In this document: piece by piece, positions 47,901-62,962 of the stretch
How the letters are laid out: each line of letters opens with the position of its first letter
Position numbering within the stretch: position 1 is the stretch's first letter
NCBI GenBank assembly: GCA_947450025.1
Contig: CANFTW010000006.1
Location: 62,001-126,000 of the forward strand
Source of the DNA: Bacteroidota bacterium
GTDB taxonomy: Bacteria > Bacteroidota > Bacteroidia > B-17B0 > Aurantibacillaceae
DNA length: 64,000 nt
Direction of reading: 5' to 3'
The notes under the pieces: generated by a model
What the model saw: the letters and a program-made list of their open reading frames with translations, nothing else
Databases searched by the model: none
Told to the model about the DNA's origin: nothing
Program-made: the position numbers and the translations under genes

Positions 47901-50900
47901 ACTCCAGGTTATTTTTATAATTGGAATACAATACCAGTTCAAACTAGTCAATTAGCTAGTGGATTGTGTGCTGGGAATTATTTTGTGACTGTGACTGATT
48001 CAAAAGGCTGCATTGCTTCAGTAGGCGCAAATGTTATACAGCCAGCTGTATTAACGGCTTCAATGAGTAATGTTCAAGCAAGTTGTAATGTGTGTATTGG
48101 CTCTGCCACGGCAAATGGAATTGGCGGAACACCACCCTATACTTATTTATGGGTTCCGGGTGGACAAACTACACAAACTGCAAGTAACCTTTGTGTAGGA
48201 CCTCAAACAATTACGATTACCGATAGTAAGGGATGTTTAACTACTCAAACTGTGCAAATAAACCAATTGGTTATTGTATTGGTAACTTCAAATGGTAATA
48301 CATTAGCTTGTAACGGAGCTTGCTCTGGAGTTGCAATAGCAAATGCTTCAGGAGGCATTGCGCCATACAGTTATACTTGGACTCCAGTGCCTACTCAAAA
48401 CACACAGATTGCTTCAGGCTTATGTGCCGGAACTCATACGGTTATGGTTTCAGATGTTAATGGTTGCTCAAATATGGGTACTGTTAATTTTGTGAATCCC
48501 CCCGCTATCACATTAACGGTTAATAAAACAGATGTTACTTGTAATGGCTCATGCAATGGGTCGGCTAGTGCCATTGCAAATGGAGGAACAGGTGTGTTAT
48601 CTTATTTATGGCAACCTGGAGGTATGACCACTTCATCTGTTTCTGGCCTATGTCCTGGTAGTTATTCAGTAACAGTATCTGATATTAATAATTGTTCGCA
48701 AGTTCAAGTGATTACTATTACACAATCTAATTCTATAACGGCTACGTTTACTTTTACAAATCCAACGTCTTGTGTGACTGCTAATGGCGCAATAGCGACT
48801 TCGATTACCGGCGGACTAGCACCTTATACTTATACCTGGTTGCCAGGTAATTCATCAGCTAATCCATACACAAATCTTTCTGCAGGAAATTATTCATTAA
48901 ATATTAATGATGCTGCAGGATGCACTAGAACAGTAGTAGCTTCTTTAAGCAGTCCTACAGGGGCAACGGTTTCGGTCGTATCTAATTCTATTTCTTGTTT
49001 TGGTCTATGCAGTGGATCAGCTACTTTATCTATATCAGGTGTAGGACCATTTAGTGTGAATGGTTCTGCTATTCCTTCGAATACAACTACCTTACTTGGG
49101 TTATGTTCAGGAATTACAAACGCTGTCGTATTGGATGCCAATGGTTGTGTAACTAATCAAACCATTAGTATTTCCCAACCTCCTCAGCATACTGCTACTG
49201 GTATCATTACAAACGCAACATGTCATTCAGTTTGTTCAGGCTCTATAAATTTAACGCCTAACGGTGGTACCCCTGCTTATACCTATTCATGGTTTCCTAC
49301 GGGAGGTAATGTTCAAGATCCAATTAATTTATGCTCAGGAAATTATTCAGTGATTACAACTGATGCAAATGGGTGTTCTTTAACGAATACATTCGTCATA
49401 GTCCAGCCTACCTCATTAACTCTTAGTTTTAATAAAAAGGATGTGCTATGTCATGGAAATTGTGACGGAGGTGTAAGAGCGATTGTTGGTGGAGGAACTA
49501 CACCATATTCATATACCTGGACTCCCTTAGGTTCTTTTTTAGGTTCAACAATCGATACGTTAGTAAACTTATGCTCAGGTATTTACTCGGTTACGGTTCA
49601 GGATTTAAATGGATGTTCTATTTCAGGAACTGTAAATATTGGACAACCTACACTATTAACATCCACATTGACTAGCATTAATGCTAAATGTAATAATCAA
49701 TGCAATGGATCAGCTATAATTAATGTAAGTGGCGGAACGCTGCCATATTCATTTTCTTATAATACCTCGCCAGCAGTCACCACACAAACTATAAATAATT
49801 TATGTGACGGTTCTTATATAGGGCAAGTGATTGATGCCAATGGGTGTAGTAATACTTTGAATTTTAATATTACAGAGCCGTTGCCAATTGTTATTACAAG
49901 CACTCTTAGTCATCCAAAGTGTCATGCGGTTTGTGATGGCAGTGTGGCAACTACAGTTACCGGTGGCAACCCTAGTTATCATTATTCATGGATAACTAGT
50001 GGAGGTACTGTTCCAAACCCTACGGGATTATGCGCAGGAAATTATACCGTAGTGGTTACAGATGATAGTTTGTGTTCTGCTCAAGCACTAGTTGTTTTAA
50101 TAGATCCTGTTGCACTCATTGCAAACACAACCTTTACTAATCCTACTTGTAATTTAGCTTGTAATGGTATTGTTTCAGCAAGTCCAATTGGAGGAACAGC
50201 TCCTTATTCTTATTCATGGATATCTCCTAGTAATAACAATCAAACTGTTTCTAATTTATGTTCAGGAGCGTATACAGTAACCGTTAGTGATGCTAATTCT
50301 TGTCAAAGTATTCAGTCAGTGACGTTAACCGATCCATCTGCAATTACCTTGAACCCTGCTGTAACACCAGCTACTTGTGGTTCTAGTAATGGATCTATCA
50401 ATGCGGTGGCATCATCTGGTGTAGCTCCATATACTTATCAGTGGCTACCTCCTGTTTCTGCAGCGCAATCTACCAATACGCTAGTAACCAGTATTCCTGC
50501 TGGAATTTATACGGTAATTGTTACAGATGCTAGCGCGTGCTCAGCTACCTTAACCATACCGCTTAGTAATTCCAATGGTCCAAATGGAGCGACTATTACT
50601 TCAACCAATGTAGCTTGTAACGGACAGTGTAATGGTGCGGCAGATGTTTCTAATCCTATAGGAGGAGCAGCGCCTTATGTCCTGAGTTGGGTTACTCCAG
50701 TATCTTTAAGCCCATCTATTTCAGGTCTCTGCGCGGGGACCTATACTGCACAAATTCAGGATGCTAATAATTGTATTTTTTATAAAGCAGTGACAATTCT
50801 GCAGCCACAATTAATAGATGATAATGAAACGATTTTGAGTGCAACATGTTTTGGCAATTGTAATGGAAGTATTACTTTAAATCCAAGCGGCGGAAATGGA

Positions 50901-52475
50901 ACTTATTCATATGTATGGAGCAATGGAAGTAATTTGCAAACCGTTAGTGGCCTATGCCCAGGTTCAATTTCTGTGATAATCACCGATAATTTAAACTGTA
51001 ACTTTGCCGCTACCTATACGGTTCCTAGTTTAACAACAATTACTAGTAGTACCTTTGCCACTAATAATAACTGTTTTGGAGATTGTAATGGTACTTTATT
51101 AGCTACAAATGTTGCAGGAGGATTGCCTCCTTATTCTTTCAATTGGTCAGACTCTTTTGGACAATCGACATCTTTAGCTGTTGGATTATGTAATGGATCC
51201 TACTCTGTAACTATTACAGACGCTAATGGTTGTTTTAATTCAGTGCCAGCTATCATTTCATCGCCTTCTCAAGTTGCAATCACACAAGTGAGTACCCAGC
51301 CTATTTGTTATAATGATTGTAATGGTTCCTTTACAGTTACACCAATTGGAGGAACAATGCCATATACCTATACATGGACTCCAACTAATGTTAATAATAA
51401 CTCGATTACGAATTTATGTTCAGGATCTTATTCAATACTTGTCAATGATGCCAATGGGTGCTCTGCAACTGATACTTACTCATTAACAAATCCTCCTTTG
51501 TTGACATTATCCGCTATCATAACATCTGCTAGTTGTAATACAACATTAGATGGCGCAATTGATGTAACCGTTAGTGGAGGTGTTCCCAATTATTCCTATA
51601 CTTGGACTCCTACAGGAGCCATCACTCAAGATATTTCAAATGTTCTATCAGGAGTGCATTCGTTAACCTTAACAGATAATTATGGTTGTAATCTTGACAC
51701 GTCATTTGTACTCACACCAGCTATTACTGTGAATGCTGTTGCTGGACAAGACACGATGCTATGTCAAAATATAACTTTACTATTAGATGGTTCGGCGTCA
51801 AACGGAGGCGTTTCTTATCAATGGTTTGAAATACCTGGAACTTCAGCGATTGCTAATTCAATTACAACTTCGGTAACTCCAGCAGTCGGAACAAATACGT
51901 ACGTGTTACTAGCGACTAATGGAGCTTGTAATGATCAAGATACTATTTTGGTGACCACTCATGCATTGCCTATTGTTGATGCAGGACCTATGGTTAATAT
52001 CCCGATATTTTCTTCTTCTAGTATTGGAGGAAATCCAACAGCAGCTTCAGGCAGTATATTTAGTTGGTTCCCAATAACAGGTTTAAATAATCCAAACTCT
52101 GCAAATCCCGTTTCTGGCACAACAGTGACGACTATTTATACTGTGTCGGTGGTTGATGTTAATGGATGTATAGGTTCTGATACCGTTACGGTTTATATCT
52201 ATCCTGAAATTACAATTCCAAATGGGTTTTCACCAAACGGTGATGGAAAAAATGATGTTTGGCAAATTGATTTTATTAATTTATTCCCTGATTGTGAGGT
52301 GGAAGTATATAATCGATGGGGCGAGCAATTGTTTTATTCAGTAGGATATTCTGTGCCATTTAATGGACAATATAAAGGAAAAGATTTACCAGTAGGAACT
52401 TATTATTATGTTATCAAATTAAATCATCCAGCCTATCCTAACGCCTATACAAGTCCATTAACCATATTTAGATAA
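44940..52475 (+). CDS. Giant SprB-repeat cell-surface adhesin with CHU_C C-terminus
   Basis: This 2511-residue exported protein has the signal peptide MFKRRLFFIVLLATGYLNAQ and an N-terminal WVGGSGYWNDINHWS segment with a right-handed beta region up to about residue 240. About 26 SprB-type repeats (residues about 250-2260) follow. Each is about 75-80 residues with the pattern C-N-x-x-C-N-G ... GG-x-x-P-Y-x-Y-x-W ... L-C-x-G-x-Y-x-V-x-V-T-D-x-x-G-C. Ig-like segments precede the final 85-residue CHU_C domain (IPNGFSPNGDGKNDVW). SprB of Flavobacterium johnsoniae is a mobile surface adhesin of gliding secreted through T9SS. This gene is followed after 2 bp by a SprF/PorP gene, the matching export partner, so it is most likely a SprB-type adhesin. 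Confidence 0.9.
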   Translation: MFKRRLFFIVLLATGYLNAQTFYWVGGSGYWNDINHWSFVSGGAPATTIPNSSSTVVFDNASSISSFTIHALHDVSFHSIIAQNTQFKIDVIGSPTVDLRISGQVTLNPNFQFNLNGKIYLSPQNSVNYQFSHQKFHNDIVLNASSDVDLGVLSTSKSILISGNFKLKNSVVFADDIQISNARLVFDNNLFQATTRVDVNNSQITNPTATKSKIICPLNNLQPSVLQTLHSVSNLSVNPIMPQACVVPNPTVVFPTCQGLCNGVAIFNLSGCTNPPYLIQWINPVCSSSLPPAQPAFSGTTYSVNTLCGCSSQYLVIFENALGEQAAVSVGVVDPPATILNFSQTQPTCNNLCNGQIRASVLTGAVPMVINWNPPNVSHTNIISKDTLKNACAGTYTITATNVNGCTNTFTTVLVQPSVLLANGSSSSVTCNASCDGSALVAPSGGTGPYSYSWSSPSSSPSTSTLSNFGGLCPGVVTATVTDTKSCSATYSANITQPPAITLTVTKTNLICANICNGTASVTATGGIGSYTYSWTPSGGTGASATGLCSGNYTVTVTNNVTCIKTITVDILSPPTLTASPTQSNILCNAACNGSVNLNPTGGTSSYTYSWSPVVSNTVTASGLCAGIYSYSVTDVLGCQYTNTVSITQPPASTLSISSASITCNAACNGSAIGNMSGGTSPYTYSWSPGNPLGQTTPTITNLCPNTYTLKVTDVNGCMVTKTVTISQPTPITANITTVTPSCNGTCDGSINTIPSGGVAPYSYTLQTSSTSITSNPPFTNLCAGSYSVIIKDALGCVKIQTVSLTQPNPITLTLNATSINCFNQCNASVSAVVNGGSPIYTFTWSTGGTSNSLVNQCAGVRSATVTDVNGCSASATVTITSKPDLTISITPTNPNCNSQCTGILTTSVSGGTPNYTINWNNGAVGNIVNNLCQGVYTVTVTDFLGCIKTQTASIITPPAITLTPANGTVSCSGVCDGTISVTASGGTPGYFYNWNTIPVQTSQLASGLCAGNYFVTVTDSKGCIASVGANVIQPAVLTASMSNVQASCNVCIGSATANGIGGTPPYTYLWVPGGQTTQTASNLCVGPQTITITDSKGCLTTQTVQINQLVIVLVTSNGNTLACNGACSGVAIANASGGIAPYSYTWTPVPTQNTQIASGLCAGTHTVMVSDVNGCSNMGTVNFVNPPAITLTVNKTDVTCNGSCNGSASAIANGGTGVLSYLWQPGGMTTSSVSGLCPGSYSVTVSDINNCSQVQVITITQSNSITATFTFTNPTSCVTANGAIATSITGGLAPYTYTWLPGNSSANPYTNLSAGNYSLNINDAAGCTRTVVASLSSPTGATVSVVSNSISCFGLCSGSATLSISGVGPFSVNGSAIPSNTTTLLGLCSGITNAVVLDANGCVTNQTISISQPPQHTATGIITNATCHSVCSGSINLTPNGGTPAYTYSWFPTGGNVQDPINLCSGNYSVITTDANGCSLTNTFVIVQPTSLTLSFNKKDVLCHGNCDGGVRAIVGGGTTPYSYTWTPLGSFLGSTIDTLVNLCSGIYSVTVQDLNGCSISGTVNIGQPTLLTSTLTSINAKCNNQCNGSAIINVSGGTLPYSFSYNTSPAVTTQTINNLCDGSYIGQVIDANGCSNTLNFNITEPLPIVITSTLSHPKCHAVCDGSVATTVTGGNPSYHYSWITSGGTVPNPTGLCAGNYTVVVTDDSLCSAQALVVLIDPVALIANTTFTNPTCNLACNGIVSASPIGGTAPYSYSWISPSNNNQTVSNLCSGAYTVTVSDANSCQSIQSVTLTDPSAITLNPAVTPATCGSSNGSINAVASSGVAPYTYQWLPPVSAAQSTNTLVTSIPAGIYTVIVTDASACSATLTIPLSNSNGPNGATITSTNVACNGQCNGAADVSNPIGGAAPYVLSWVTPVSLSPSISGLCAGTYTAQIQDANNCIFYKAVTILQPQLIDDNETILSATCFGNCNGSITLNPSGGNGTYSYVWSNGSNLQTVSGLCPGSISVIITDNLNCNFAATYTVPSLTTITSSTFATNNNCFGDCNGTLLATNVAGGLPPYSFNWSDSFGQSTSLAVGLCNGSYSVTITDANGCFNSVPAIISSPSQVAITQVSTQPICYNDCNGSFTVTPIGGTMPYTYTWTPTNVNNNSITNLCSGSYSILVNDANGCSATDTYSLTNPPLLTLSAIITSASCNTTLDGAIDVTVSGGVPNYSYTWTPTGAITQDISNVLSGVHSLTLTDNYGCNLDTSFVLTPAITVNAVAGQDTMLCQNITLLLDGSASNGGVSYQWFEIPGTSAIANSITTSVTPAVGTNTYVLLATNGACNDQDTILVTTHALPIVDAGPMVNIPIFSSSSIGGNPTAASGSIFSWFPITGLNNPNSANPVSGTTVTTIYTVSVVDVNGCIGSDTVTVYIYPEITIPNGFSPNGDGKNDVWQIDFINLFPDCEVEVYNRWGEQLFYSVGYSVPFNGQYKGKDLPVGTYYYVIKLNHPAYPNAYTSPLTIFR
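45690..51715 (+). repeat. Coding SprB repeat array (about 26 units)
   Basis: About 26 tandem units of roughly 230 bp each lie in frame inside the adhesin gene. They share the translated motif C-N-x-x-C-[ND]-G and GGTxPYxYxW but are strongly diverged at DNA level, so the array is old. Three units lack the usual second cysteine: near 48770 (CVTANGAIATS), 50370 (CGSSNGSINAV) and 51530 (CNTTLDGAIDV). Confidence 0.85.
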
Positions 52476-52477
52476 AG

Positions 52478-53401
52478 ATGAATAAGATTTTATACATAAC
52501 GGTAATGGTGTTGCTTACAAGTAAGTTTCTGGCACAACAGTTACCTCAGTATACTCAGTATATGCTAAATGAAATGGCAATTAATCCTGCAGTTGCAGGC
52601 AAAGATAATTACGCGGATGTTAGATCAAATAATCGTTACCAATGGGTTGGAATAACGGATGCACCTCGAACTTATATGTTAACCTTGCATAGTCCTTTAA
52701 AAAATAAACGTATGGGCTTAGGTACGCAAATTTATACCGATATTGTTGGTCCAACAAGAAGAGTAGGAATTAGTTTAGCCTATGCGTATCACATTAAACT
52801 TTCTGAAAAAATTAAACTGTCGTTAGGTTTAAGTGCCGGAATACAGCAGTGGGGGATTGATGGACATAAATTACATTTGCATGATTCGGGGGATGAAAAT
52901 TTATTGACGCAATATCAAACTAAGGTAGTTCCTGATTTTGGAGCAGGCCTATATGTGCATCATGAAAATTGGTATATTGGTTTTAGTGCTCCTCAGTTAT
53001 ATCAAAGTCCCATTAAATTATATGATGGCGGAGATAATAAGGGAACGTTAGTGACTCATTTTTTATTAAATGGCGCCTATAAGTTTAAAGTAAATGATGA
53101 ATTTAAAATAGAGCCATCATTTTTAGCTAAATATGCCAGTCCCGCTCCTATTAAGGTGGATGTTGGAGCTCGCGTCATTTATCAAGAACAAATTTGGTTA
53201 GGCGTTGGATACAGACACCATGATGCATTTACAGCTATACTTGGATTTATGTATAAAAATTATTTAATGATTGGGTATTCTTACGATTTCACAACAACTA
53301 ATTTGAAAAAGTATTCTACTGGAACCCATGAGTTAATGCTAGGGTTAAAGTTTTCTAAACAGCAAACTAAACATTGGACTGATGATAATACAACTAATTA
53401 A
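52478..53401 (+). CDS. PorP/SprF family T9SS outer-membrane protein
   Basis: This 307-residue protein has a signal peptide (about residues 1-19) and the family start QQLPQYTQYMLNEMAINPAVAGKDNYADVRSNNRYQWVGI. Beta strands and the aromatic barrel ending follow (GYSYDFTTTNLKKYSTGTHELMLGLKF). SprF of F. johnsoniae is needed for surface delivery of SprB, and PorP is its P. gingivalis relative. The gene lies 2 bp after the SprB-repeat gene, repeating the known adhesin-SprF pair, so it is probably dedicated to that protein. Confidence 0.92.
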   Translation: MNKILYITVMVLLTSKFLAQQLPQYTQYMLNEMAINPAVAGKDNYADVRSNNRYQWVGITDAPRTYMLTLHSPLKNKRMGLGTQIYTDIVGPTRRVGISLAYAYHIKLSEKIKLSLGLSAGIQQWGIDGHKLHLHDSGDENLLTQYQTKVVPDFGAGLYVHHENWYIGFSAPQLYQSPIKLYDGGDNKGTLVTHFLLNGAYKFKVNDEFKIEPSFLAKYASPAPIKVDVGARVIYQEQIWLGVGYRHHDAFTAILGFMYKNYLMIGYSYDFTTTNLKKYSTGTHELMLGLKFSKQQTKHWTDDNTTN

Positions 53402-53409
53402 TTTTTTAG

Positions 53410-53438
53410 TTGTTTTTAGTCAATTTATCTTATTTTTG
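53410..53438 (+). promoter_or_regulatory. Predicted psd promoter
   Basis: TTG (53410-53412), an 18-nt spacer and TATTTTTG (53431-53438), a full TAnnTTTG match. The ATG at 53519 follows after an 80-nt leader. Confidence 0.6.
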
Positions 53439-53518
53439 ACAAAATTTTAAACGTAAACCATACAGGAAATAGATTAATTAATGGTTTTCAACCATATAAA
53501 TAAACAAATATTAAAACT

Positions 53519-54178
53519 ATGAAATTTCATAAAGAAGGATATCCAACATTATTAGTCACTATTTTATTTAGTGCCATTATGATTAGTATAGCAAAATTAG
53601 TTTTCCCTGATTTTGCTATAGCGCTTTGGTTTGCTTATGCGTTATCAGGATTTTTATTGATTGTCGTGCTTCAGTTTTTTAGACATCCGTCTCGTGTGCA
53701 TACCATTAATGATCATGCTATTGTAGCTCCAGCAGATGGCGAAGTGGTTGTGATTGAAGAAACAGAAGAGGGGGAATATTTTAAAGATAAACGTATTCAG
53801 GTGTCTATATTTATGTCTCCAATAAATGTGCATGTTAATCGCTATCCAATTGCTGGTGAAGTGACTTACGCTAAGTATCATCCTGGAAAATTTTTAGTTG
53901 CAAGTTTGCCTAAAGCAAGTACAGAGAATGAACGAACGTCAGTTGTTGTCAAGCATCCTTCAAACGGTCAATCGGTTTTATTTAGACAAGTTGCTGGAGC
54001 TTTAGCGCGTCGTATTGTGATGTACAGTAAAGAAGGAGATAAAGCCACTCAGTGTGGTGAAATGGGTTTTATTAAGTTTGGTTCTCGTGTAGATTTATAT
54101 TTGCCTTTAGACGCTAAACTTAAAGTTAAAATGGGAGATGTTGTTAAAGGCTCTCAATCAGTTATTGCTGAGTTTTAG
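53519..54178 (+). CDS. psd: Phosphatidylserine decarboxylase-family protein
   Basis: This 219-residue protein has an N-terminal membrane region (two hydrophobic segments within residues 9-58). The decarboxylase domain follows (IVAPADGEVVVIEE, VSIFMSPINVHVNRYPIAGEV) and ends in the FIKFGSRVDLYLP motif, where cleavage before Ser forms the pyruvoyl cofactor. It makes phosphatidylethanolamine from phosphatidylserine at the inner membrane. This short form of Psd is usual in Bacteroidota. Its end overlaps the convergent CHAT gene by 17 bp. Confidence 0.9.
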   Translation: MKFHKEGYPTLLVTILFSAIMISIAKLVFPDFAIALWFAYALSGFLLIVVLQFFRHPSRVHTINDHAIVAPADGEVVVIEETEEGEYFKDKRIQVSIFMSPINVHVNRYPIAGEVTYAKYHPGKFLVASLPKASTENERTSVVVKHPSNGQSVLFRQVAGALARRIVMYSKEGDKATQCGEMGFIKFGSRVDLYLPLDAKLKVKMGDVVKGSQSVIAEF

Positions 54179-56456
54179 CATTTTGTTTCCGTTGTTTATA
54201 GATTAAAAACAGGAATAAAAGTAAAAGGACAAAAACACTGATAGCCAAGTATAAAAATATATTTTCGTGATGATTTTTACTTAAATAAAAATCGCTACCA
54301 TAATATACATAAGCTCCCCACATAGATGGTGAATAGTTTTGTTTTGCAAAATAAAGTTTTGTTTCATATAATGCATCTGATGAAGCTAATCCTTGAGCCA
54401 TAAAAGAATAAAATTTTTCTAAAAACTCAGCGTTTTCTTTGTCGTCAATAGGCCATATGCTACAAATTACTGCATGAGCATGTTGATTCATTAAAATGTA
54501 AGGAAAACTATTTATTTTATCAAATCTAACTTCTCGGCCGATGCCACTGCCACAACCATTTAGTAAATAACTACTACCGTCTAAATTTTTATTTAAAACA
54601 CAATTGCTATTTATCACAATCGTATCATTTAAAATTAACTCCTGTTCAACAGACTTGTCATTTGAGTTTATATGACCAATATATTCAAATAATTGATTCG
54701 GTTTTAAAAAGCATTGATTCGATGAAGCATCGCATTTTTGGATGTTAAAAAGTACTTTTAATTTATTTATTAAAGTTTCGCTAAATAATAATTTTGGATA
54801 TTTATGAGATGCAAAATTTGGCACTAAGATATTCAAATACTTATATTTTATGACTTGTCTACTCTTTTTTAAAAGGATATATCCACTTATAGTATATGTA
54901 AAATTATATCTATTAATAAGGGCTGAACTGGAAAATGAATGATGTTTGACGGAATCTGTTTGAAGCATATCGAAATTAAGAGAATTTAAAAATCCATCGT
55001 TAATGATAGTTACTTTTTTAATATTCCTTTTAGTAAGTATGCTGTCTATTTTTTTAAAATAAGCTTCATACATTAAATAATTTGTTTTTTTAAAATAGGA
55101 AGTGTTACTTCTTATACTATCTCTTTGGAAAATTTTATTGCTTTTTTGGAGTGGAATATAATCACTATTAATAGAGCAATTAATCATCAATGTAGTATCA
55201 GGTAACGAAATAATAGCTATTGTTAAAACTGGATTATGTGTGATTAAATAATTTATTACAGAGCAGTTTTCTTTTTTACAAAAAAAAGAGATGCTGTCTA
55301 ACATTTTTGATTTATGGTTAATTAATTCGTTAGCATAGGGCTCCTTATTTAATTTCTTAATAAACTCAATAAGGTTATAGCATTTATAGATATAAATTTG
55401 ATTTTTTGTTGCTTGAAATAACTCAAAATATACCGCTAATAATTTTTGATAGGGATTAATATTATATTGGTCGTCAAATCCATTATAGTGATTTTCAACT
55501 TCTATTTTATAAAAATTTTCCCAAATAGGAATGGACTTTAATAATGATGTTTCATTTTTATACAAATACTTAATATCATGAGTTTTATAATACAAACTCA
55601 TATTAATACTTGATTCCCAAGTTATGATAGCAGAATAGTCTGAATAATTTAAAACAGTGTTGTCAACTACTAAAGCTTCTTTTGTTTTATCCGCTAAAAC
55701 CAAACTTGCGTCATCTAGCTTTCTGTATTTTAAAATAATAGACCATATTTTATAAATACTGCTATGTAAGGAACTTTTTTTATTTGGATAAATAGATGTT
55801 GCTAATGCTTCTGCTTTAGTTAAATAAGTAATACTCCGATGATACATATTTAAATTTTCACTTAATGTCCATTGCTGTTCACTTAAATTTAATAGATCAC
55901 TTAAAAATGTGCCATACCTTCTATAATGCAATGCTTTTAAAAAGGGAATATCAGATAATGCAATCGCTGAGTCTAAGAATTTAACATCTCTATATTTTGT
56001 GTTTCTAGCTCCATTTCCAATATAAGAGTAGTATCTCGAATAACTTATTTTATCTCGTTTTTTAAATGAATAATGTAATAACGTTTTTGTTGCCTTAGCT
56101 ATAAAATAGGTACTAGAATCATGCATTAAATAACAATGATAGTAATTAGCTAAACGGCCATAAAATAAAGCACTATCCAAGGAATTATTTTTGTTAATAC
56201 GAAATTGTAAGGCTATGTATTTTAAATTATTTTCAAAATGTCCTTGTTCTAAATTATATTCAGCTAAAAAATCGTAAGCGTTGGTAAGATAGCTAGCAGA
56301 AACTATTTTTTTGTTTGCTACTATTTTATTCGCTAATACCAGAGCACTATCTGTTTTTCCACTCCAATACAAATTAAGAGGCAAATTCTGGCTAAACAAA
56401 TTAGCAGAAAAAAAGCAAAAAATAATTAAATAAGTTTTGATGATGCGAATAATCAT
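54162..56456 (-). CDS. CHAT-domain (caspase-like) protein, extracytoplasmic, C-terminally anchored
   Basis: This 764-residue protein has an N-terminal signal peptide (about residues 1-22, FFSANLFSQ) and a long helical, TPR-like region (about residues 30-400). The C-terminal CHAT domain (about residues 470-725) carries the likely dyad His in FEYIGHINSN and Cys in LLNGCGSGIGREV. It also has the CHAT signatures NQHAHAVICSIWPIDDKENAEFLEKFYSFM and SPSMWGAYVYYG. A final transmembrane helix (about residues 733-753) plus a basic tail place the domain outside the inner membrane. Its start ATG shares an A with the stop of the upstream TPR gene (TAATG). It is likely a periplasmic protease controlled by the operon's membrane TPR protein. 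Substrates are unknown. Confidence 0.85.
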   Translation of the reverse strand: MIIRIIKTYLIIFCFFSANLFSQNLPLNLYWSGKTDSALVLANKIVANKKIVSASYLTNAYDFLAEYNLEQGHFENNLKYIALQFRINKNNSLDSALFYGRLANYYHCYLMHDSSTYFIAKATKTLLHYSFKKRDKISYSRYYSYIGNGARNTKYRDVKFLDSAIALSDIPFLKALHYRRYGTFLSDLLNLSEQQWTLSENLNMYHRSITYLTKAEALATSIYPNKKSSLHSSIYKIWSIILKYRKLDDASLVLADKTKEALVVDNTVLNYSDYSAIITWESSINMSLYYKTHDIKYLYKNETSLLKSIPIWENFYKIEVENHYNGFDDQYNINPYQKLLAVYFELFQATKNQIYIYKCYNLIEFIKKLNKEPYANELINHKSKMLDSISFFCKKENCSVINYLITHNPVLTIAIISLPDTTLMINCSINSDYIPLQKSNKIFQRDSIRSNTSYFKKTNYLMYEAYFKKIDSILTKRNIKKVTIINDGFLNSLNFDMLQTDSVKHHSFSSSALINRYNFTYTISGYILLKKSRQVIKYKYLNILVPNFASHKYPKLLFSETLINKLKVLFNIQKCDASSNQCFLKPNQLFEYIGHINSNDKSVEQELILNDTIVINSNCVLNKNLDGSSYLLNGCGSGIGREVRFDKINSFPYILMNQHAHAVICSIWPIDDKENAEFLEKFYSFMAQGLASSDALYETKLYFAKQNYSPSMWGAYVYYGSDFYLSKNHHENIFLYLAISVFVLLLLFLFLIYKQRKQNAKTQQ

Positions 56457-57160
56457 TATTTAGTACTATACTCTTTTAAAATTAATTTCTTTTTAAATGC
56501 CATTTCATTAGTATTAAAAATGGTGGTATTCAAAATGTTTAACGCTTCATTTGTTTTATTATTATACAAATAACTAAGTACTAAATAATACATGGATTTG
56601 TTTTTATAGACAGACGTTTGAGGTAGAAGTAGTAAATGATTTATGGCACTATCCATTTTATTTAATTTAATAAAACAAATACCACTATAATACATGGCTG
56701 TATCATTTTGCGCAATACTTACAAATTGGTCAAGTGCTGCTTTATAATCTTTGGCACGATAATAACTCATGCCATTTTGCAAAAACATACTTTTATCAGT
56801 AGGGCCCATCCAAACTTTAAAACCAGGATCTTCTATCCAGTAATGGTTAATGGCTGATGCTTTATTGCTCAAAGAAAATTTCACCAAAAGCCCTACGGAG
56901 ATAATCAATACAATTCCTGCTGCTATTTTATAGTAATTACCAATATGTTTTTGTTTTGAAGGCTTTAAAGTAAGCGGCGGTGGTTCGGTAAATTGTTTTA
57001 ATAATTGTATATTATACTTATTGTTTTCTAAAAACAGTTTCAACCCTGCCAATGCATCGTCATCAAAATCAGTTGATTTGATGTAGTCCAAAAAATAGGA
57101 TTGATTATTTAATAAACCATCAAGCACTTCTGCATAAGTATGTTTTTGTTTTGATTCCAT
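56456..57160 (-). CDS. Membrane TPR protein, possible anti-sigma-like partner
   Basis: This 234-residue protein starts at the ATG at 57160 (MESKQKHTYAEVLDGL), which overlaps the sigma-factor stop as TAATG. An ATG at 57178 is a less likely alternative. About 80 cytoplasmic residues are followed by one transmembrane helix (about residues 82-102, KIAAGIVLIISVGLLVKFSL). A periplasmic region with TPR-like repeats (KDYKAALDQFVSIAQNDTAMYYSGICFIKL) completes the protein. This layout (small cytoplasmic domain, one helix, extracytoplasmic TPR) fits an anti-sigma factor or regulator for the sigma gene in front of it. No known anti-sigma domain is recognised, so this is inference from topology and gene order. 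Confidence 0.75.
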   Translation of the reverse strand: MESKQKHTYAEVLDGLLNNQSYFLDYIKSTDFDDDALAGLKLFLENNKYNIQLLKQFTEPPPLTLKPSKQKHIGNYYKIAAGIVLIISVGLLVKFSLSNKASAINHYWIEDPGFKVWMGPTDKSMFLQNGMSYYRAKDYKAALDQFVSIAQNDTAMYYSGICFIKLNKMDSAINHLLLLPQTSVYKNKSMYYLVLSYLYNNKTNEALNILNTTIFNTNEMAFKKKLILKEYSTK

Positions 57161-57720
57161 TACATAAAAAGTTGCCATAATTTTTTAATACGTTGTTTGG
57201 CATTGTGCAGCGTATTGCGAACGGTATTATAACTTATATTTAATTGAGTAGCAATTTCTTCGTTTTTGTAACCTTGCAAATGCAGTTCAATCATTTCTCT
57301 TTCTCTATTTGGTAAGTTATCAAGTAATTGTTTAATAGCTTCTGATTCAAAACGATTAAAAGAAGTGTTTATACTATTCACTGATATTAAAGTTACCAAA
57401 TGTTTTTTTATTTCACCGTGTAATTTGTTTGTTTTTATACCATCCAAACATTTATTTTTTACTACAGTTACTAAAAAAGGATAGAGTCCTTTTTGTGGAT
57501 GAAGTATGATTTGCTCGCGCTTAGGTTGTTGAATATGTAATAGTTTTTCGAAAACAGCACCCACTACATCTCTGCTTTTTTCAGTATCAGCGGTGTATTT
57601 ATAGGCAATCATCACCAGCGATTGGTAATAGTGTTCGTATAGCTTGCCTAACGCTTCATTATTTCCATTTAAGTAATGAGCACTAAATAGATATTCATTA
57701 AATGAGAGCATTTTATCCAT
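57160..57720 (-). CDS. RNA polymerase ECF-type sigma-70 factor
   Basis: This sigma factor of 186 residues has region 2 (ALGKLYEHYYQSLVMIAYKYTADTEKSRDVVGAVFEKLLH) and region 4 with a helix-turn-helix (LPNREREMIELHLQGYKNEEIATQLNISYNTVRNTLHNAKQRI). It is of ECF type. I chose the ATG at 57720 (MDKMLSFNEYLF); an in-frame TTG 30 bp upstream is less likely. Its stop overlaps the TPR gene start as TAATG, and a second TAATG joins the TPR gene to the CHAT gene. All three are probably co-translated. The cognate promoters are unknown. Confidence 0.9.
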   Translation of the reverse strand: MDKMLSFNEYLFSAHYLNGNNEALGKLYEHYYQSLVMIAYKYTADTEKSRDVVGAVFEKLLHIQQPKREQIILHPQKGLYPFLVTVVKNKCLDGIKTNKLHGEIKKHLVTLISVNSINTSFNRFESEAIKQLLDNLPNREREMIELHLQGYKNEEIATQLNISYNTVRNTLHNAKQRIKKLWQLFM

Positions 57721-57828
57721 GAGTTGCCAAAAATATATTTTTTTAAACAATTATTAGTACAAAGTAAAATATTAATCGTTTTACTTATACTGCAAGCTCA
57801 TTTCATTAGCAGCTATTTATTTTGTAGT
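57721..57828. other. Divergent promoter region between the sigma operon and the HTH gene
   Basis: This 108-bp AT-rich region serves divergent genes. On the minus strand TTACTTTG (57767-57760) is one mismatch from TAnnTTTG. A TTG about 25 nt upstream of it is longer than the usual spacing. No regulator site can be named. Confidence 0.3.
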
Positions 57829-58050
57829 GTGGATATAAGAAAAATTATACGTATTAATAAGCTCATTAAAGGGCAACGAACGGGCTCTCCCAAAACACTG
57901 AGCATAAACCTGGGAGTAAGCGAACGCACGGCGCACAATTATTTACGTTATATGCGCAAAGAATTAAAAGCCCCCATAAAGTGGAATCCTTATAAAAGAA
58001 CTTATACCTACGAAAATGATGGTGAACTAAAATTTGAATGGCAACAATAA
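57829..58050 (+). CDS. Small HTH DNA-binding protein
   Basis: This 73-residue protein starts at GTG 57829 (MDIRKIIRINKLIK). It has a helix-turn-helix near residues 16-45, TGSPKTLSINLGVSERTAHNYLRYMRKEL, and a short C-terminal winged part (IKWNPYKRTYTYE). Small HTH proteins of this shape are common in Bacteroidota and usually of unknown role. It faces the sigma operon divergently and precedes a PD-(D/E)XK-like gene by about 130 bp. Confidence 0.65.
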   Translation: MDIRKIIRINKLIKGQRTGSPKTLSINLGVSERTAHNYLRYMRKELKAPIKWNPYKRTYTYENDGELKFEWQQ

Positions 58051-58184
58051 AAACAAACTGCAACCTCATTTCAGTGTAATGGTTTTTATTTGCCAATAGT
58101 TATCAAACCTTTTTTGTTATAGGTAAAATAACAAAGGCGAAAACCGAAAAGCCAGATGAGTAGGGAAATAAAAAATATAAAAGC

Positions 58185-58733
58185 ATGTTAAAATTACTAA
58201 GGATAGCGTTAAGCAATATTAATACTAAATATTTTGAGAGAAATGAGCGAGATTTTTCTTACGAACTCTATCACCAAATCCGGATACTCAAGCTACCAAA
58301 AGAAACAGAAGTAACATGTGAATCGTCCAAAAAAAGATTTGCTATGAATGACACTATTCTAAATAATAAATTAATAAAAAGGTGTTTTTTTTCTAATGGA
58401 ATTAATGAAAATAGCAGGATTTATAGATATCCGGACTTGTTGATTCATGAATATGATAATATGAATCAGCAGTTGATCGCTGTGGAAATTAAAAAAAGAG
58501 TTGATCCAACTTTAATAAAACGGGACTTGGCCAAATTAGTTGTTTATTGCAAAGGGCGCCTAAACTACAAGAGTGGGGTTCTTATCATTATAAATCCAAA
58601 TGATATAAGTCGAATTATTGAGATGCCTGATATTCGCGCGATGTTAAAGCTATATCCTGAAGTACAAATTTGGATAGCAAAACCCAATAAACCAATAGAA
58701 ATAATTTGTAAAGAAACTTTAAATAAATATTAA
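58185..58733 (+). CDS. PD-(D/E)XK-like nuclease-fold protein of unknown function
   Basis: This 182-residue protein has a plausible PD-(D/E)XK core. A glutamate helix, ERDFSYELYHQIRIL, lies near residues 20-34. The motif YRYPDLLIHEYDN follows, and 13 residues after the Asp comes VEIKKR, giving the D...E-x-K pattern. The strand after that is VLIIINP. The overall order fits nuclease-fold families such as Holliday-junction-resolvase-like or restriction-type enzymes. I recognise no specific family. It stands alone between a small HTH gene and a T9SS cargo gene. Confidence 0.6.
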   Translation: MLKLLRIALSNINTKYFERNERDFSYELYHQIRILKLPKETEVTCESSKKRFAMNDTILNNKLIKRCFFSNGINENSRIYRYPDLLIHEYDNMNQQLIAVEIKKRVDPTLIKRDLAKLVVYCKGRLNYKSGVLIIINPNDISRIIEMPDIRAMLKLYPEVQIWIAKPNKPIEIICKETLNKY

Positions 58734-58792
58734 AGCAAATAATCTAAATAGTTCTTGAATATTAATAACAACTCTCTAAAACCAAAAAAACC

Positions 58793-60109
58793 ATGAAAAA
58801 AACAATTACACTTTTTATTGCTGCTTTAATAATTACAGCAACAACTATGGCACAAACAGTGCCTAATTATGTACCCAACAACGGCCTAGTTGGCTGGTGG
58901 CCTTTTAATGGCAATGCCATTGACGAAAGTATTAATACCAATGATGGGACAGTAAATGGAGCAACCTTAACAACGGATAGATTTGGTAATGTAAATAGTG
59001 CTTACAGTTTTAATGGTACTAACAATAAAATTGTTGTTAATGATGCAACTCCTCTTCGTCTTAATAATACAGATTTTACTATTTCGTTTTGGACATATAT
59101 CAACGCATACAGCACTGGTGGAGGAACTGCATTCATATACAAAAGAGGCGTAGGTGTTCAAAATGGCTGGGCTTTAGGAGCAGACCAAGGGACGCAAAAC
59201 AAATTGTTTTTGGGTTTATCAGGTGGAGCAGACCCAAGAGGGTATTCGAACTCTACCTTGGGTTTAAATGGGTGGCATCATGTAACAATTGTTTATACAC
59301 TAACAATACATACATTAGAATGTTATATTGACGGATTACTTGACAATACTACAACTGGGGTGGATGGTAATAACCTTCCTGTTGCAGGTGGTCTGCCAAC
59401 ACCAAATGCTAGTTGTACTTCTTCTATGTATTTTGGACAAGATACAGGAAACAACAATTATTGGTTAAATGGCAAACTAGATGACATTGGCATTTGGAAC
59501 AGAGCTTTTCTTTCATGTGAAATTAAGGATTTATATTTTGGCAGCCTTGGCAATTGTTGCAATAATGCAGTAACAAACCAGCCAACAAATCAAACTTTAT
59601 CTTCGGGTAGCACGGCTATATTCACGGTATCTGCAACAGCTGGTTCAACATTACAATGGCAAACTAATTTAGGGGTAGGGTTTCAAAATTTAAGTAACGC
59701 TGGGCAGTATAGTGGTGTTACTACACAAACTTTAACGGTAAGTAGTATTGGAGTTAACAACAACAATCAAACCTTCAGATGTATAGTAGGTTCAGGCTCT
59801 TGCAGCGATACCAGCAATGTTGCTACTTTAAGTTTATCAACGGTTGGGTTTGAAGATGTAAGTCTCTTAAAAAATGTGGAGCTATATCCAAATCCTGCAA
59901 TAACTGTCATTAATGTTAAGATGAGCACAGCATTAATAAACAATGCTATCATTGAGTTATATGACGCAACTGGTAAATTAATTATGCAACAAAAAGTAAC
60001 TAATGAATTTACTTCGCTTAATATAAATGGTTTATCAAATGGTATTTATTCAGTGCGTGTGATTACAGATAATGAACAAACTATTAAACGAATAGTTAAA
60101 CAACAATAA
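58793..60109 (+). CDS. LamG-domain T9SS cargo protein
   Basis: This 438-residue exported protein has a signal peptide (about residues 1-20, ATTMAQ). A concanavalin A-like LamG domain follows (about residues 30-250: GLVGWWPFNGNAIDES, YSFNGTNNKIVV, WHHVTIVYTL, DIGIWNRAFLSCEI). An Ig-like segment covers about residues 262-350, and a type A T9SS sorting domain ends the protein (ELYPNPAITVINVKM ... IKRIVKQQ). LamG domains bind carbohydrates or other surfaces in this setting, but the ligand here is unknown. It ends with a strong terminator. Confidence 0.88.
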   Translation: MKKTITLFIAALIITATTMAQTVPNYVPNNGLVGWWPFNGNAIDESINTNDGTVNGATLTTDRFGNVNSAYSFNGTNNKIVVNDATPLRLNNTDFTISFWTYINAYSTGGGTAFIYKRGVGVQNGWALGADQGTQNKLFLGLSGGADPRGYSNSTLGLNGWHHVTIVYTLTIHTLECYIDGLLDNTTTGVDGNNLPVAGGLPTPNASCTSSMYFGQDTGNNNYWLNGKLDDIGIWNRAFLSCEIKDLYFGSLGNCCNNAVTNQPTNQTLSSGSTAIFTVSATAGSTLQWQTNLGVGFQNLSNAGQYSGVTTQTLTVSSIGVNNNNQTFRCIVGSGSCSDTSNVATLSLSTVGFEDVSLLKNVELYPNPAITVINVKMSTALINNAIIELYDATGKLIMQQKVTNEFTSLNINGLSNGIYSVRVITDNEQTIKRIVKQQ

Positions 60110-60134
60110 AATCGAATAATTTGTTTGTTTTAAG

Positions 60135-60170
60135 CAAGCTGCATTATTTATAATGCAGCTTGTTTTGTTT
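60135..60170 (+). terminator. Rho-independent terminator of the LamG gene
   Basis: The perfect 12-bp stem CAAGCTGCATTA / TAATGCAGCTTG with a TTTA loop is followed by TTTTGTTTT. It lies 26 nt past the stop. Confidence 0.85.
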
Positions 60171-60198
60171 TGATAATTGGCTTATTTAGAATTTTTAG

Positions 60199-60942
60199 TT
60201 AATACACAAACTCTTTTAGTTCGGCAGGCATTACAAAAGAACTGTTCTTCGTGTAAAAATCTTCTAGTTCCTTATTGAATTTTTTGACAAATTCTGGATA
60301 TTTTTTGATAGCATATCCTTGCTGGTAATAAGGGAATGGTTTATGAAGTTGAATAAAGTATCGGTTTTTTACAACAATTGCTACCTCTTTTGAAGCTGTG
60401 CCTTTTTCAATGGCCATTGGAGCTTGAGCTTCAGATACGATTCCTAAAGATGAGTCGTAAATAGAACCTTGCTCCGCAATTAAATAAAAAGACGCTTTGC
60501 AAACAATAGATGAATTGATTGATAAAGTGCTATCCACAAAAATAGTTTCTAAATGTTGATGCTTCACTGAATCAGAATAATCAGAATAAAAAAAGAAAAC
60601 CGGGCAAAATTTAAACTCTTTGTTGTAGGCTCTAATAATGGCTTTATTTGTGAGCTGCGTTTCGCGTTCAACTTGTGTGGCCAAATCTATGTTGCCAGCA
60701 TTTTTTAAACGCTGAATGGTATTAGTATTTGTTTTTAATCGCACTAATAAAGCCCCATCTTTTTTTAATAAGGTAATTTGTGCTTTAGCCACATTAAATC
60801 TTAAAGTATTAAAATTAGTAAAGGATGAGTCTGTTTTATAATTATTTACTTTAGGAGGTTTGGCACCGTCTTCTTGAGATACGCCATTTAATCCGCCTAG
60901 TATAGCAAGTATAAATATAAATTTATTTAATTTCAGAACCAT
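60199..60942 (-). CDS. Exported protein of unknown function downstream of metG
   Basis: This 247-residue protein has a signal peptide (about residues 1-22, LGGLNGVSQ). Helical and beta segments follow, for example [29 protein letters not shown] and [30 protein letters not shown]. It has no recognised domain. Its ATG lies 20 bp inside the metG end on the same strand, so the two are probably co-transcribed. That does not imply a shared function. Confidence 0.65.
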
Positions 60943-62962
60943 TGTTAAAATCTGGTTTTGTAGCTGTTATAAAACTTAATTCTCCAGCACTATTAGAAGC
61001 CATTAAAATCATTCCCTGACTTTCAATGCCTTTAATTTTTCTAGGCGCTAAGTTTACCAAAATACTCACTTGTTGTCCAATAATATCTTCTGGTTTATAC
61101 CACTCAGCAATGCCACTTACCACAGTACGTTGATCAATTCCTGTGTCAATTTTTAATTTTAATAATTTATCTGTTTTGGGAACACGTTCTGCCTCTAAAA
61201 TGGTTCCAGTACGAATATCCATTTTACTAAAATCATCAAAACTTGTTTCTGGTTTGCTAGGCGCAATTACAGTGGTAACATTAGCCGCTTTGCTAGCTGA
61301 AAGTTTATCAATTTGTGCCTGAATTTCTGCGTCTTCTATTTTCGCAAATAATAATTCATCTTTATTAATCACATGCCCTGCTGCCATATTGGATGTTTGT
61401 TTAGCCGCATGCCATTTTAGAATGGGCATATTTAACATGCCAAATAATTTAGAAGAGGTAAATGGAATAAACGGTTCGCAAACAATTGCCAGATTACAAG
61501 TAATTTGTAAGGCAATATTCATAATAGTTTTAACACGTTGCTCATCTATTTTAATTAATTTCCAAGGCTCTGTTTCTGCTAAATACTTGTTCCCTAAACG
61601 AGCTAAATTCATCATTTCCGATAGAGCTTCTCTGAACTTAAATTGTTCAATGGCTGCCGAAATTTTATCAGGAAAAGCTGATAATTGCTCTAAAATGAGT
61701 AAATCTTCTTTTGTATAGGTGTCTGCAGAAGGTACTGAACCGTTATAATATTTATGTGTTAATACTAAGGTGCGATTGACGAAATTCCCTAAAATAGCTA
61801 CTAATTCGCTATTGTTTTTGGTTTGAAAATCAGCCCAAGTAAAATCATTATCTTTTGTTTCTGGTGCATTTGAGCATAATGTATAACGCAAGACATCTTG
61901 CTTATCTTTAAAGTCAATTAAATATTCATGCAACCAAACCGCCCAATTACGAGACGTTGAAATTTTATCACCCTCTAAATTTAAAAACTCATTTGCAGGA
62001 ACATTATCCGCTAAAATAAAATCACCATGCTCCATTAACATGGCTGGAAAAATGATGCAATGAAAAACAATGTTATCTTTCCCAATAAAATGAATTAAGC
62101 GAGTTTCTTTATCTTTCCAATATAATTCCCAATCATTTGGTCGTAATTCTTTAGTAGCAGAAATATAACCAATAGGTGCATCAAACCACACATACAACAC
62201 TTTTCCTTCAGCTCCTTTTACAGGTACAGGTACGCCCCAATCTAAATCACGAGTCATGGCACGTGGTTGCAAACCATCTCCACTATCTAACCAACTTTTA
62301 CATTGGCCATAAACATTCGTCTTCCAGTCTTTATGTTGATCTAGGTAAGCTTGAATTTTAGGTTGTAATTTATCTAATGGTAAAAACCAATTTTTTGTTT
62401 CTTTTAAAATAGGCTTACTGCCACTAAGCGTTGATTTAGGATCAATTAATTCGGTAGCATTTAATGTCGAACCACACTTTTCACATTGGTCGCCGTAGGC
62501 ATTTGGATTCGCACATTTAGGACAAGTTCCAGTAATATAACGATCAGCTAAAAACTGTTTAGCTTCAGCATCATAATATTGTTCAGTGATTTCTTCTGTA
62601 AAAACACCTTTATCATACAATGTTTTAAAGAAGTCGGAAGCTGTTTCGTGATGAGTTTTACTGGAGGTACGAGAATAAACATCAAATGAAATCCCAAATT
62701 CTTTAAAAGAATCTCCCATCATTTTATGGTATTTATTTACCACATCTTGAGGGGTGATACCTTCTTTTTTAGCTTTAATGGTAATAGGCACGCCATGTTC
62801 ATCGCTACCGCATATAAACATCACGTCTTCCCCTTTGCTTCTTTTGTATCTGACAAAGATATCGGAAGGTAAGTAACAACCCGCTAAATGACCAATGTGA
62901 ACAGGTCCATTAGCATAAGGTAAAGCGGAAGTAACAAGTGTTCGTTTATAAGTAGCTGACAT
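60923..62962 (-). CDS. metG: Methionyl-tRNA synthetase
   Basis: This 679-residue class I synthetase charges tRNA-Met. It has the HIGH motif [16 protein letters not shown], a zinc knuckle with four cysteines in [18 protein letters not shown], and the KMSKS-equivalent loop [17 protein letters not shown]. An anticodon-binding domain follows, then a C-terminal tRNA-binding OB domain (about residues 575-679: [29 protein letters not shown]). The KMSKS loop reads KISTS, an accepted variant. Its 3' end overlaps the next gene by 20 bp. Confidence 0.96.

Follow-up and report, generated by a model that had tools for sequence, protein, structure and literature searches.

Which function could join an apparently exported, caspase-like CHAT protein to a cytoplasmic sigma factor is the question raised by three consecutive genes in a 64,000-nucleotide stretch of Bacteroidota DNA (the window; GenBank assembly GCA_947450025.1, contig CANFTW010000006.1, positions 62,001 to 126,000), where the minus strand encodes, 5′ to 3′, a 186-aa extracytoplasmic function (ECF)-type sigma factor, a 234-aa tetratricopeptide repeat (TPR) protein and a 764-aa CHAT protein, the last being the one CHAT protein encoded in this genome. 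The locus is likely to specify a transmembrane, caspase-like form of regulated anti-sigma proteolysis; with somewhat less assurance, it may be counted among transmembrane switches that are independent of CRISPR and form a family widespread in Bacteroidota, each pairing a periplasmic, caspase-like CHAT protease with an anti-sigma substrate of its own, and enzyme and cut site would have switched specificity together several times.

The sigma factor (57160..57720, minus strand, as are all features of the trio; ATG at 57720, stop at 57160) matches Pfam Sigma70_r4_2 (5.9e-15) and Sigma70_r2 (3.1e-6), with a weak match to region 3 (0.09) under the cut-off and a match to NCBIfam TIGR02985 (1.6e-27) under that model's cut-off; regions 2 and 4 within a protein this short are the hallmark of an ECF factor. 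The TPR protein (56456..57160; Pfam TPR_6 and ANAPC3) comprises an N-terminal helical domain (residues 1–60; 56981..57160), modelled by AlphaFold2 (AF2) as four helices and putatively a cytoplasmic sigma-binding domain; a transmembrane helix (residues 79–97; 56870..56926), indicated by a hydropathy peak of 2.4 at residue 79 and by a low-confidence AF2 helix over the same residues; and a predicted extracytoplasmic TPR domain (residues 125–233; 56462..56788) with TPR matches in the PDB. This model was built from six sequences, with a predicted local distance difference test (pLDDT) of 64–84 for the block at residues 1–60 and mostly 83–92 for the TPR block, much of the linker being of low confidence. 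The CHAT protein (54162..56456) combines N-terminal helical repeats with a CHAT domain (PF12770, 7.6e-14; 52.3 bits against a cut-off of 24), and carries a signal peptide at about residues 1–23 (56388..56456; its end judged by eye), catalytic His595 (codon 54672..54674) and Cys635 (codon 54552..54554), and a C-terminal transmembrane anchor at about residues 733–755 (54192..54260; hydropathy 3.1). The topology set out in a preliminary description of the locus, with a cytoplasmic sigma factor, a TPR protein crossing the membrane once and a CHAT protein bearing a signal peptide, a His/Cys dyad and a C-terminal anchor, agrees with hydropathy, by which the sigma factor has no membrane segment, the TPR protein a single one, at residue 79 (its sidedness being predicted), and the CHAT protein two, at residues 2 and 733; the dyad (H595/C635) is aligned in 125/127 CHAT rows, the remaining two (loci L094 and L154) being unaligned at that place.

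A candidate protease site lies in the linker between the membrane helix and the first TPR. In alignment A1 of 21 related proteins (partners, delimited below), Arg (16), Lys (2) or Met (3) stands before the first TPR and is followed in 21/21 rows by a small residue (S/G/N/A/D), both as read by eye, the window Met being placed at this site by a two-residue gap, as in locus L012. The pattern [RK][SGNAD] occurs in 30/33 dereplicated linkers, about 17–30 residues past the helix, whereas shuffled linkers yield 8.75 on average and 17 at most (2000 shuffles, 0/2000 reaching 30). Within the window's family the motif reads D-x-G-F-K-[VI]-x-M-[GS], with D111, G113, F114, K115 and M118 invariant in 6/6 members; given the two-residue gap, M118-G119 of the window copy (D111-x-G-F-K-V-W-M118-G119; 56804..56830), predicted to be extracytoplasmic, corresponds to R-S/G in the linkers of the other partners.

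The residue at this site covaries with a single position of the CHAT domain. When 49 linked CHATs were labelled as Met (L041, L156 and six of the window's family), Lys (L096 and L142) or, by default, Arg, seven columns were listed as mostly acidic in the Arg-type proteins, one of which separates the site types fully: at the alpha-1 column (residue L562 of the window protein; codon 54771..54773), Glu is present in 39/39 Arg-type CHATs, whereas all 10/10 others carry Leu, Ala, Val or Met. The column was fixed before 40 further partner loci from a class sample were fetched, 24 of which contained both genes; scored by a fixed rule (Arg, then S, G, N or D, 12–46 residues past the helix), linker and column were concordant in 24/24 of these later pairs (13 Arg/Glu and 11 with neither; Fisher 4e-7), the site residue of the 11 non-Arg pairs being Met in ten and Leu in one, as read by eye. 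Across all 73 pairs, concordance is 73/73 with the site assigned by eye (linker Arg with alpha-1 Glu, others without Glu) and 69/73 by the fixed rule, the four exceptions arising from a hit in the TPR part (L034, L096), an Arg-Ala site (L110) and a site beyond the permitted range (L112). A scan of well-filled CHAT columns places alpha-1 alone at 1.0, followed by the column two before the catalytic His (0.79); when the set is thinned to 50 the runner-up scores 0.72, and among the later pairs the residue just after the Cys and the one two positions ahead of it rank as well (0.78 and 0.77). Glu is likewise found at the alpha-1 column in 77/82 CHATs with no nearby partner (two of the five others being unaligned), so the non-Glu CHATs have lost a general CHAT feature. 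Because the alpha-1 column covaries with the linker residue, the comparison points to a protease that reads a site on the anti-sigma-like protein, and we infer that the CHAT protein cuts this protein, in the window at M118/G119.

Such a pairing has structural counterparts in gingipain and MALT1, where an acidic residue on alpha-1 binds the Arg at P1 (excerpts of PMC4626109 and PMC4357240). The two Lys-type CHATs (L096 and L142) have no alpha-1 Glu but carry Asp two residues before the catalytic Cys (Cys-2), a feature unique among the CHAT rows examined. In MALT1, the catalytic Cys is Cys464. MALT1 has Asp462 at the Cys-2 position of the Lys-type CHATs (excerpts of PMC4626109 and PMC4357240). 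In the AF2 model of the window CHAT protein, L562 lies in helix 558–566, after strand 541–544, and H595 and C635 lie near the ends of later strands, all at low confidence. If the locus does belong to a family of matched switches, the pairings would be alpha-1 Glu with Arg, non-Glu with Met, and Asp at Cys-2 with Lys; pocket and predicted cut site change together in the relatives, which makes the exact cut testable.

The partners were detected with a profile of 25 CHAT-linked proteins from other genomes, none of them from the window's close family (L041 is one of the 25), with two more (L071 and L112) added by eye; against this profile the window TPR protein reaches 75.6 bits across its juxtamembrane, helix and TPR parts. 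Membrane proteins encoded next to many of the CHAT-linked sigma genes follow a common plan of an N-terminal YLxGxLSxEE or HxxxCxxC segment, one membrane helix and then TPRs, in place of which another domain is found in L067, L070, L071 and L112, and residues 1–60 of the window protein occupy the same place as these N-terminal segments. The HxxxCxxC motif, a mark of zinc-binding anti-sigma (ZAS) factors, is present in six partners (L067, L070, L071, L078, L112 and L198) and absent from the sequence of the window TPR protein; matches to Pfam zf-HC2 are weak and under the cut-off in L067, L086, L118 and L081, with none in L112. A gene directly after that of an ECF factor, one membrane helix and an N-terminal helical domain (on the predicted cytoplasmic side) give the window protein the layout of an anti-sigma factor. 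Whole-model fold comparison of this protein returned no anti-sigma row among those seen, its lists being filled by TPR domains and therefore uninformative on residues 1–60.

Conservation of the three-gene order was assessed in 86 other genomes of the window's family, in six of which CHAT relatives with 41–55% identity over nearly the whole protein were identified; L034 (42% identity) brings the relatives of at least 41% identity to seven distinct contigs. The order sigma–TPR–CHAT on one strand, which the preliminary description had proposed to look for in relatives, is kept in 7/7 of these, and in a distant relative from the same genus (L012/L041; 24%) the sigma and TPR genes are convergent to the CHAT gene. 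The further claim of that description, a repeated adjacency of sigma and CHAT genes in Bacteroidota, is borne out in a wider sample for part of the CHATs only. Among 120 loci, which together hold 125 CHAT places (the window's family contributing 20 loci, and a phylum sample of 148 genomes, 74 of them with CHAT, another 100 chosen by hand), sigma genes fill 32/481 positions at slots 1–2 from the CHAT gene and 8/444 at slots 4–7; the 20/221 at slot 3 (16 at +3) belong mostly to one vertically kept neighbourhood of family f22, whose sigma/partner pair, beyond ScpA and about 2.5 kb from CHAT, was excluded from the linked set. A partner occurs within three genes (in one case at four) of 43/125 CHATs, spanning 10/19 families, and stands at +1 in 28 cases; 35 of the 43 are also near a detected sigma gene, and the genes may form one operon, be convergent or divergent, or have CHAT between sigma and partner. 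A C-terminal anchor is predicted in 34/43 partner-linked CHATs vs 18/82 others (Fisher 8e-10, uncorrected for kinship). That a sigma factor accompanies all CHATs is ruled out by the 82/125 with no partner nearby and by the window's family, most of whose fetched CHATs have no sigma neighbour.

Association is also evident between genomes, a partner being encoded in 33/74 genomes with CHAT vs 1/74 without in the phylum sample, and in 29/85 vs 4/162 in a class sample of 247 genomes that overlaps partly with it; omission of the genomes that supplied profile rows leaves 22/63 vs 1/74 and 23/79 vs 4/162. Of the four CHAT-less genomes of the class sample, G314 and G365 have a partner match confined to the TPR part, and in G162 (L158, a 3.6-kb stretch) and G298 (L260) no sigma gene lies beside the partner, the L158 linker having neither Arg nor Met ahead of a Ser or Gly.

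Several observations weigh against the reading of CHAT proteases matched to anti-sigma substrates. Besides the 82 CHATs with no nearby partner, 16/40 newly fetched partner loci show no CHAT within the fetched stretch, and L260, from a CHAT-less genome, has an in-range Arg-Gly, apparently inside the first TPR and not at the usual place. No Pfam anti-sigma domain matches the window TPR protein, its match to the partner profile omits residues 1–65, and the CHAT domain is modelled by AF2 at low confidence. Assignment of the linker sites was by eye and not blind to the CHAT column, and the rule was written after the later linkers had been seen; a first alignment of the later set placed Ser beside Glu in L230 and gaps in L233 and L255, for which joint realignment gave Glu, a gap and Leu, respectively. 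In a tree computed from the 73 CHAT domains with the alpha-1 column left out, each trait needs eight changes, and of eight independent contrasts on the best tree only two fall on starred (well-supported) branches; the tree program also warns of long branches and uneven composition. With so few supported branches, phylogeny limits the covariation statistics.

The alternative that survives best, itself unlikely, keeps the contact and removes the cut: the linker would sit uncut in the S1 pocket of the CHAT protein as a pseudosubstrate, as securin does in separase, this contact would restrain the CHAT protein or let it retain the anti-sigma factor, and a signal would part the two without cleavage. 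Covariation shows contact or shared specificity and not cutting, a limit that this alternative exploits, and the AF2 model, at low confidence, puts the site where a weak hairpin ends; the invariably small residue after the site in A1, read by eye, is nevertheless what would be expected at a cut, and the dyad has been kept in 125/127 rows. A TPR-CHAT protease of type III-E CRISPR does cut a sigma inhibitor (excerpts of PMC10028731), and the uncut pseudosubstrate is rated below cutting.

Less probable again is a reversal of roles, in which the sigma/anti-sigma pair would regulate the CHAT protein as a neighbouring effector protease with other targets, making CHAT the output of the sigma factor. 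Sigma operons often adjoin genes under their control, and at many loci the CHAT gene is convergent or divergent and outside the operon; such regulation does not, however, predict that a specificity residue of the CHAT protein would track a linker residue of the anti-sigma factor, as is observed.

That the covariation reflects shared ancestry alone, with few lineages differing in both residues, is very doubtful. The eight best-tree contrasts are concordant because all 73 pairs agree, one supported contrast sets L117 (R/E) against L096 and L142 (K/V,M), and no other CHAT column approaches the score of alpha-1 in either the full or the thinned set; these findings are set against the two contrasts on starred branches, the dominance of f22 among the Arg-type pairs (17/43 linked places) and the origin of five later non-Arg pairs in one genus group (g100). 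A chance neighbourhood of common genes, as might be suspected from the fetched window-family CHATs, most of them without a sigma neighbour, is ruled out by the order kept in 7/7 close relatives, the linkage of partners (28 at +1) and their co-occurrence with CHAT across genomes.

Under regulated cutting, the preferred reading, the TPR protein would hold the ECF sigma factor at the inner membrane face through its N-terminal domain, and the CHAT protein, predicted to be exported and anchored by its C-terminal helix, would meet the TPR protein outside the inner membrane. Upon some signal, the CHAT dyad would cut the linker between membrane helix and TPRs, at M118/G119 in the window and after Arg in most relatives, a choice of site backed by covariation; RseP-type and cytoplasmic proteases might then clear the stump and release the sigma factor. 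An M50 protease, a candidate for the second cut, is encoded in the genome. The relay of sigma factor, anti-sigma-like protein and periplasmic protease put forward in the preliminary description gains computational support from gene order, predicted topology, dyad, co-occurrence, linker conservation and covariation, while sigma binding, cutting, the signal and the later steps are its presumed parts. Two outcomes that the description named as refuting, a three-gene order lost in relatives and a dyad lost in homologues, were looked for and did not appear.

The same description had given weight to two identical TAATG junctions, found at 57162-57158 (sigma/TPR) and 56458-56454 (TPR/CHAT), which are the sole stop/start junctions in a scan of window open reading frames (ORFs) of at least 150 aa. 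One-base stop/start overlap is an ordinary operon feature. The sigma/TPR junction is kept as TAATG in 6/6 family members (the window and five relatives); the TPR/CHAT junction has this form in the window only, reading TGATG in L037 and being replaced in the four other relatives by a short gap. Because the second junction is not conserved among the five relatives, the TAATG junctions are rejected as a signal, and the identical pair is a peculiarity of the window genome.

Upstream of the sigma gene lies a conserved element (AAAACGATT-N11-TTGTAC; 57757..57782, minus strand), a candidate autoregulated promoter. The element AAAACGAWT-N11-TTGTAC precedes the sigma gene with identical spacing in 6/6 family members, as judged by eye, the 3.2-Mb genome has no exact match other than the window copy, and inside the window alone two matches to the promoter pattern were found against 0.92 expected by chance; the sigma factor probably drives its own operon, for which these matches are weak evidence. 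Genome sites with up to two mismatches number 58, vs 79 for the reversed pattern, which is no enrichment, the exact site upstream of the sigma gene alone standing out; no regulon can be drawn because near matches are no commoner than those of the reversed pattern. Divergent from the sigma gene is a small helix-turn-helix gene (57724-58050, plus strand), with a look-alike at the same place in L032 and L037, and farther off on the plus strand (44940-53401) a 2511-aa repetitive protein, presumably of surface type, is followed by a 307-aa protein that, judged from its sequence, is PorP/SprF-like.

Other arrangements of related genes were observed by eye in the window genome (G000:C3). At L217:922-2595 a sigma gene precedes the gene of a 364-aa protein whose N-terminus is anti-sigma-like and whose single chain also includes a hydrophobic segment and a part resembling trypsin-like serine proteases (GNSGGP), another pairing of protease and anti-sigma factor; at L206:288-1923 a sigma gene overlaps that of a 348-aa protein that has a hydrophobic segment and ends in a TPR-like part, and no CHAT gene lies within this 3.4-kb stretch. 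Elsewhere, sigma and partner genes are paired in fetched stretches that show no CHAT gene, among them L222, L226-L229, L240, L244-L246 and L251, several such pairs sitting in partner-rich genomes (G234, G305) and many of their linkers keeping Arg or Met before a small residue. A subtilase (Peptidase_S8, 3.3e-24) is encoded between sigma and CHAT at L142:2893-4206, with a similar gene, by eye, at L096. A second recurrent CHAT neighbourhood, in which a phosphatidyltransferase-like gene and an FtsY-like GTPase gene (named by eye) precede CHAT, is recognised by sequence in L066, L072, L074 and L085 and by gene sizes in L068, L079 and L091; in f22 it is accompanied by the separate sigma/partner pair beyond ScpA.

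To our knowledge, few bacterial CHAT proteases outside CRISPR have a known substrate; the present proposal would name both the substrate and the exact bond for roughly one in three of the CHATs sampled (43/125) and may yield natural protease/substrate pairs with distinct specificities. If true, it links the CHAT proteolysis of sigma inhibitors seen in type III-E CRISPR to transmembrane signalling. No title on an extracytoplasmic CHAT/anti-sigma pair was found among the matches listed from open-licence literature, subscription papers being outside that scope.

The logic proposed is that of RseA/DegS/RseP in the sigma-E pathway, in which a single-pass anti-sigma factor receives a site-1 cut outside the membrane and is then proteolysed further; the site-1 protease is a trypsin-like PDZ protein there, and a caspase-like CHAT protein is proposed here. 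The CRISPR-associated CASP system has itself been paralleled with RseA/DegS/RseP (excerpts of PMC10028731).

Among structures, the best Foldseek match to the AF2 model of the window CHAT protein is the Craspase TPR-CHAT (7xsr; E 1.4e-8), the VIA comparison of the same model covering mainly residues 13–481; no CHAT chain was retrieved when PDB sequences were searched with the CHAT alignment of the window's family. The Craspase chains aligned, which show a gap where Arg-type CHATs have Glu, may come from a species other than Desulfonema ishimotonii, presumably Scalindua brodae. Craspase is cytoplasmic and is triggered by RNA together with Cas7-11, whereas the window CHAT protein has a signal-peptide-like segment and a C-terminal membrane helix. 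No gene of gRAMP/Cas7-11 size is present among the ORFs listed for positions 50000-62000, the part of the genome to which this search was confined. The window system differs from known ones in its two membrane proteins and in having no Cas7-11-sized neighbour. Craspase (Csx29 TPR-CHAT, Csx30 and CASP-sigma) resembles it in combining a TPR-CHAT protease, a sigma-inhibitor substrate (a predicted one in the window) and an ECF sigma factor; the protease cuts the inhibitor, and in D. ishimotonii this cut falls between residues 427 and 429 and is lost when M427 is deleted (excerpts of PMC10028731).

In the CalpL/CalpT/CalpS system of type III CRISPR, the target cleaved by the protease is an anti-sigma factor in complex with an ECF sigma factor (excerpts of PMC11417357). 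This system differs in its protease, which is of Lon type and is activated by cyclic oligoadenylate. Another parallel is provided by PDB 8rot and 8rw5, titled transmembrane anti-sigma factor and taken by name to be Myxococcus DdvA, with a Foldseek E of 2.9e-7 to the window CHAT model; the 991-aa chain, named 'CHAT domain-containing protein', matches CHAT profile A4 at 6.2e-9, its Glu region being unaligned. A defence role for the window system is hinted at by analogy, because DdvS controls an antiphage island in Myxococcus (excerpts of PMC12288465). DdvA unites anti-sigma part, membrane helix and TPR-CHAT in one polypeptide, whereas the window distributes them over two separate genes, and in the reading of a Bacteroidota family of matched switches, Craspase and DdvA would be the soluble and the fused relatives of this logic.

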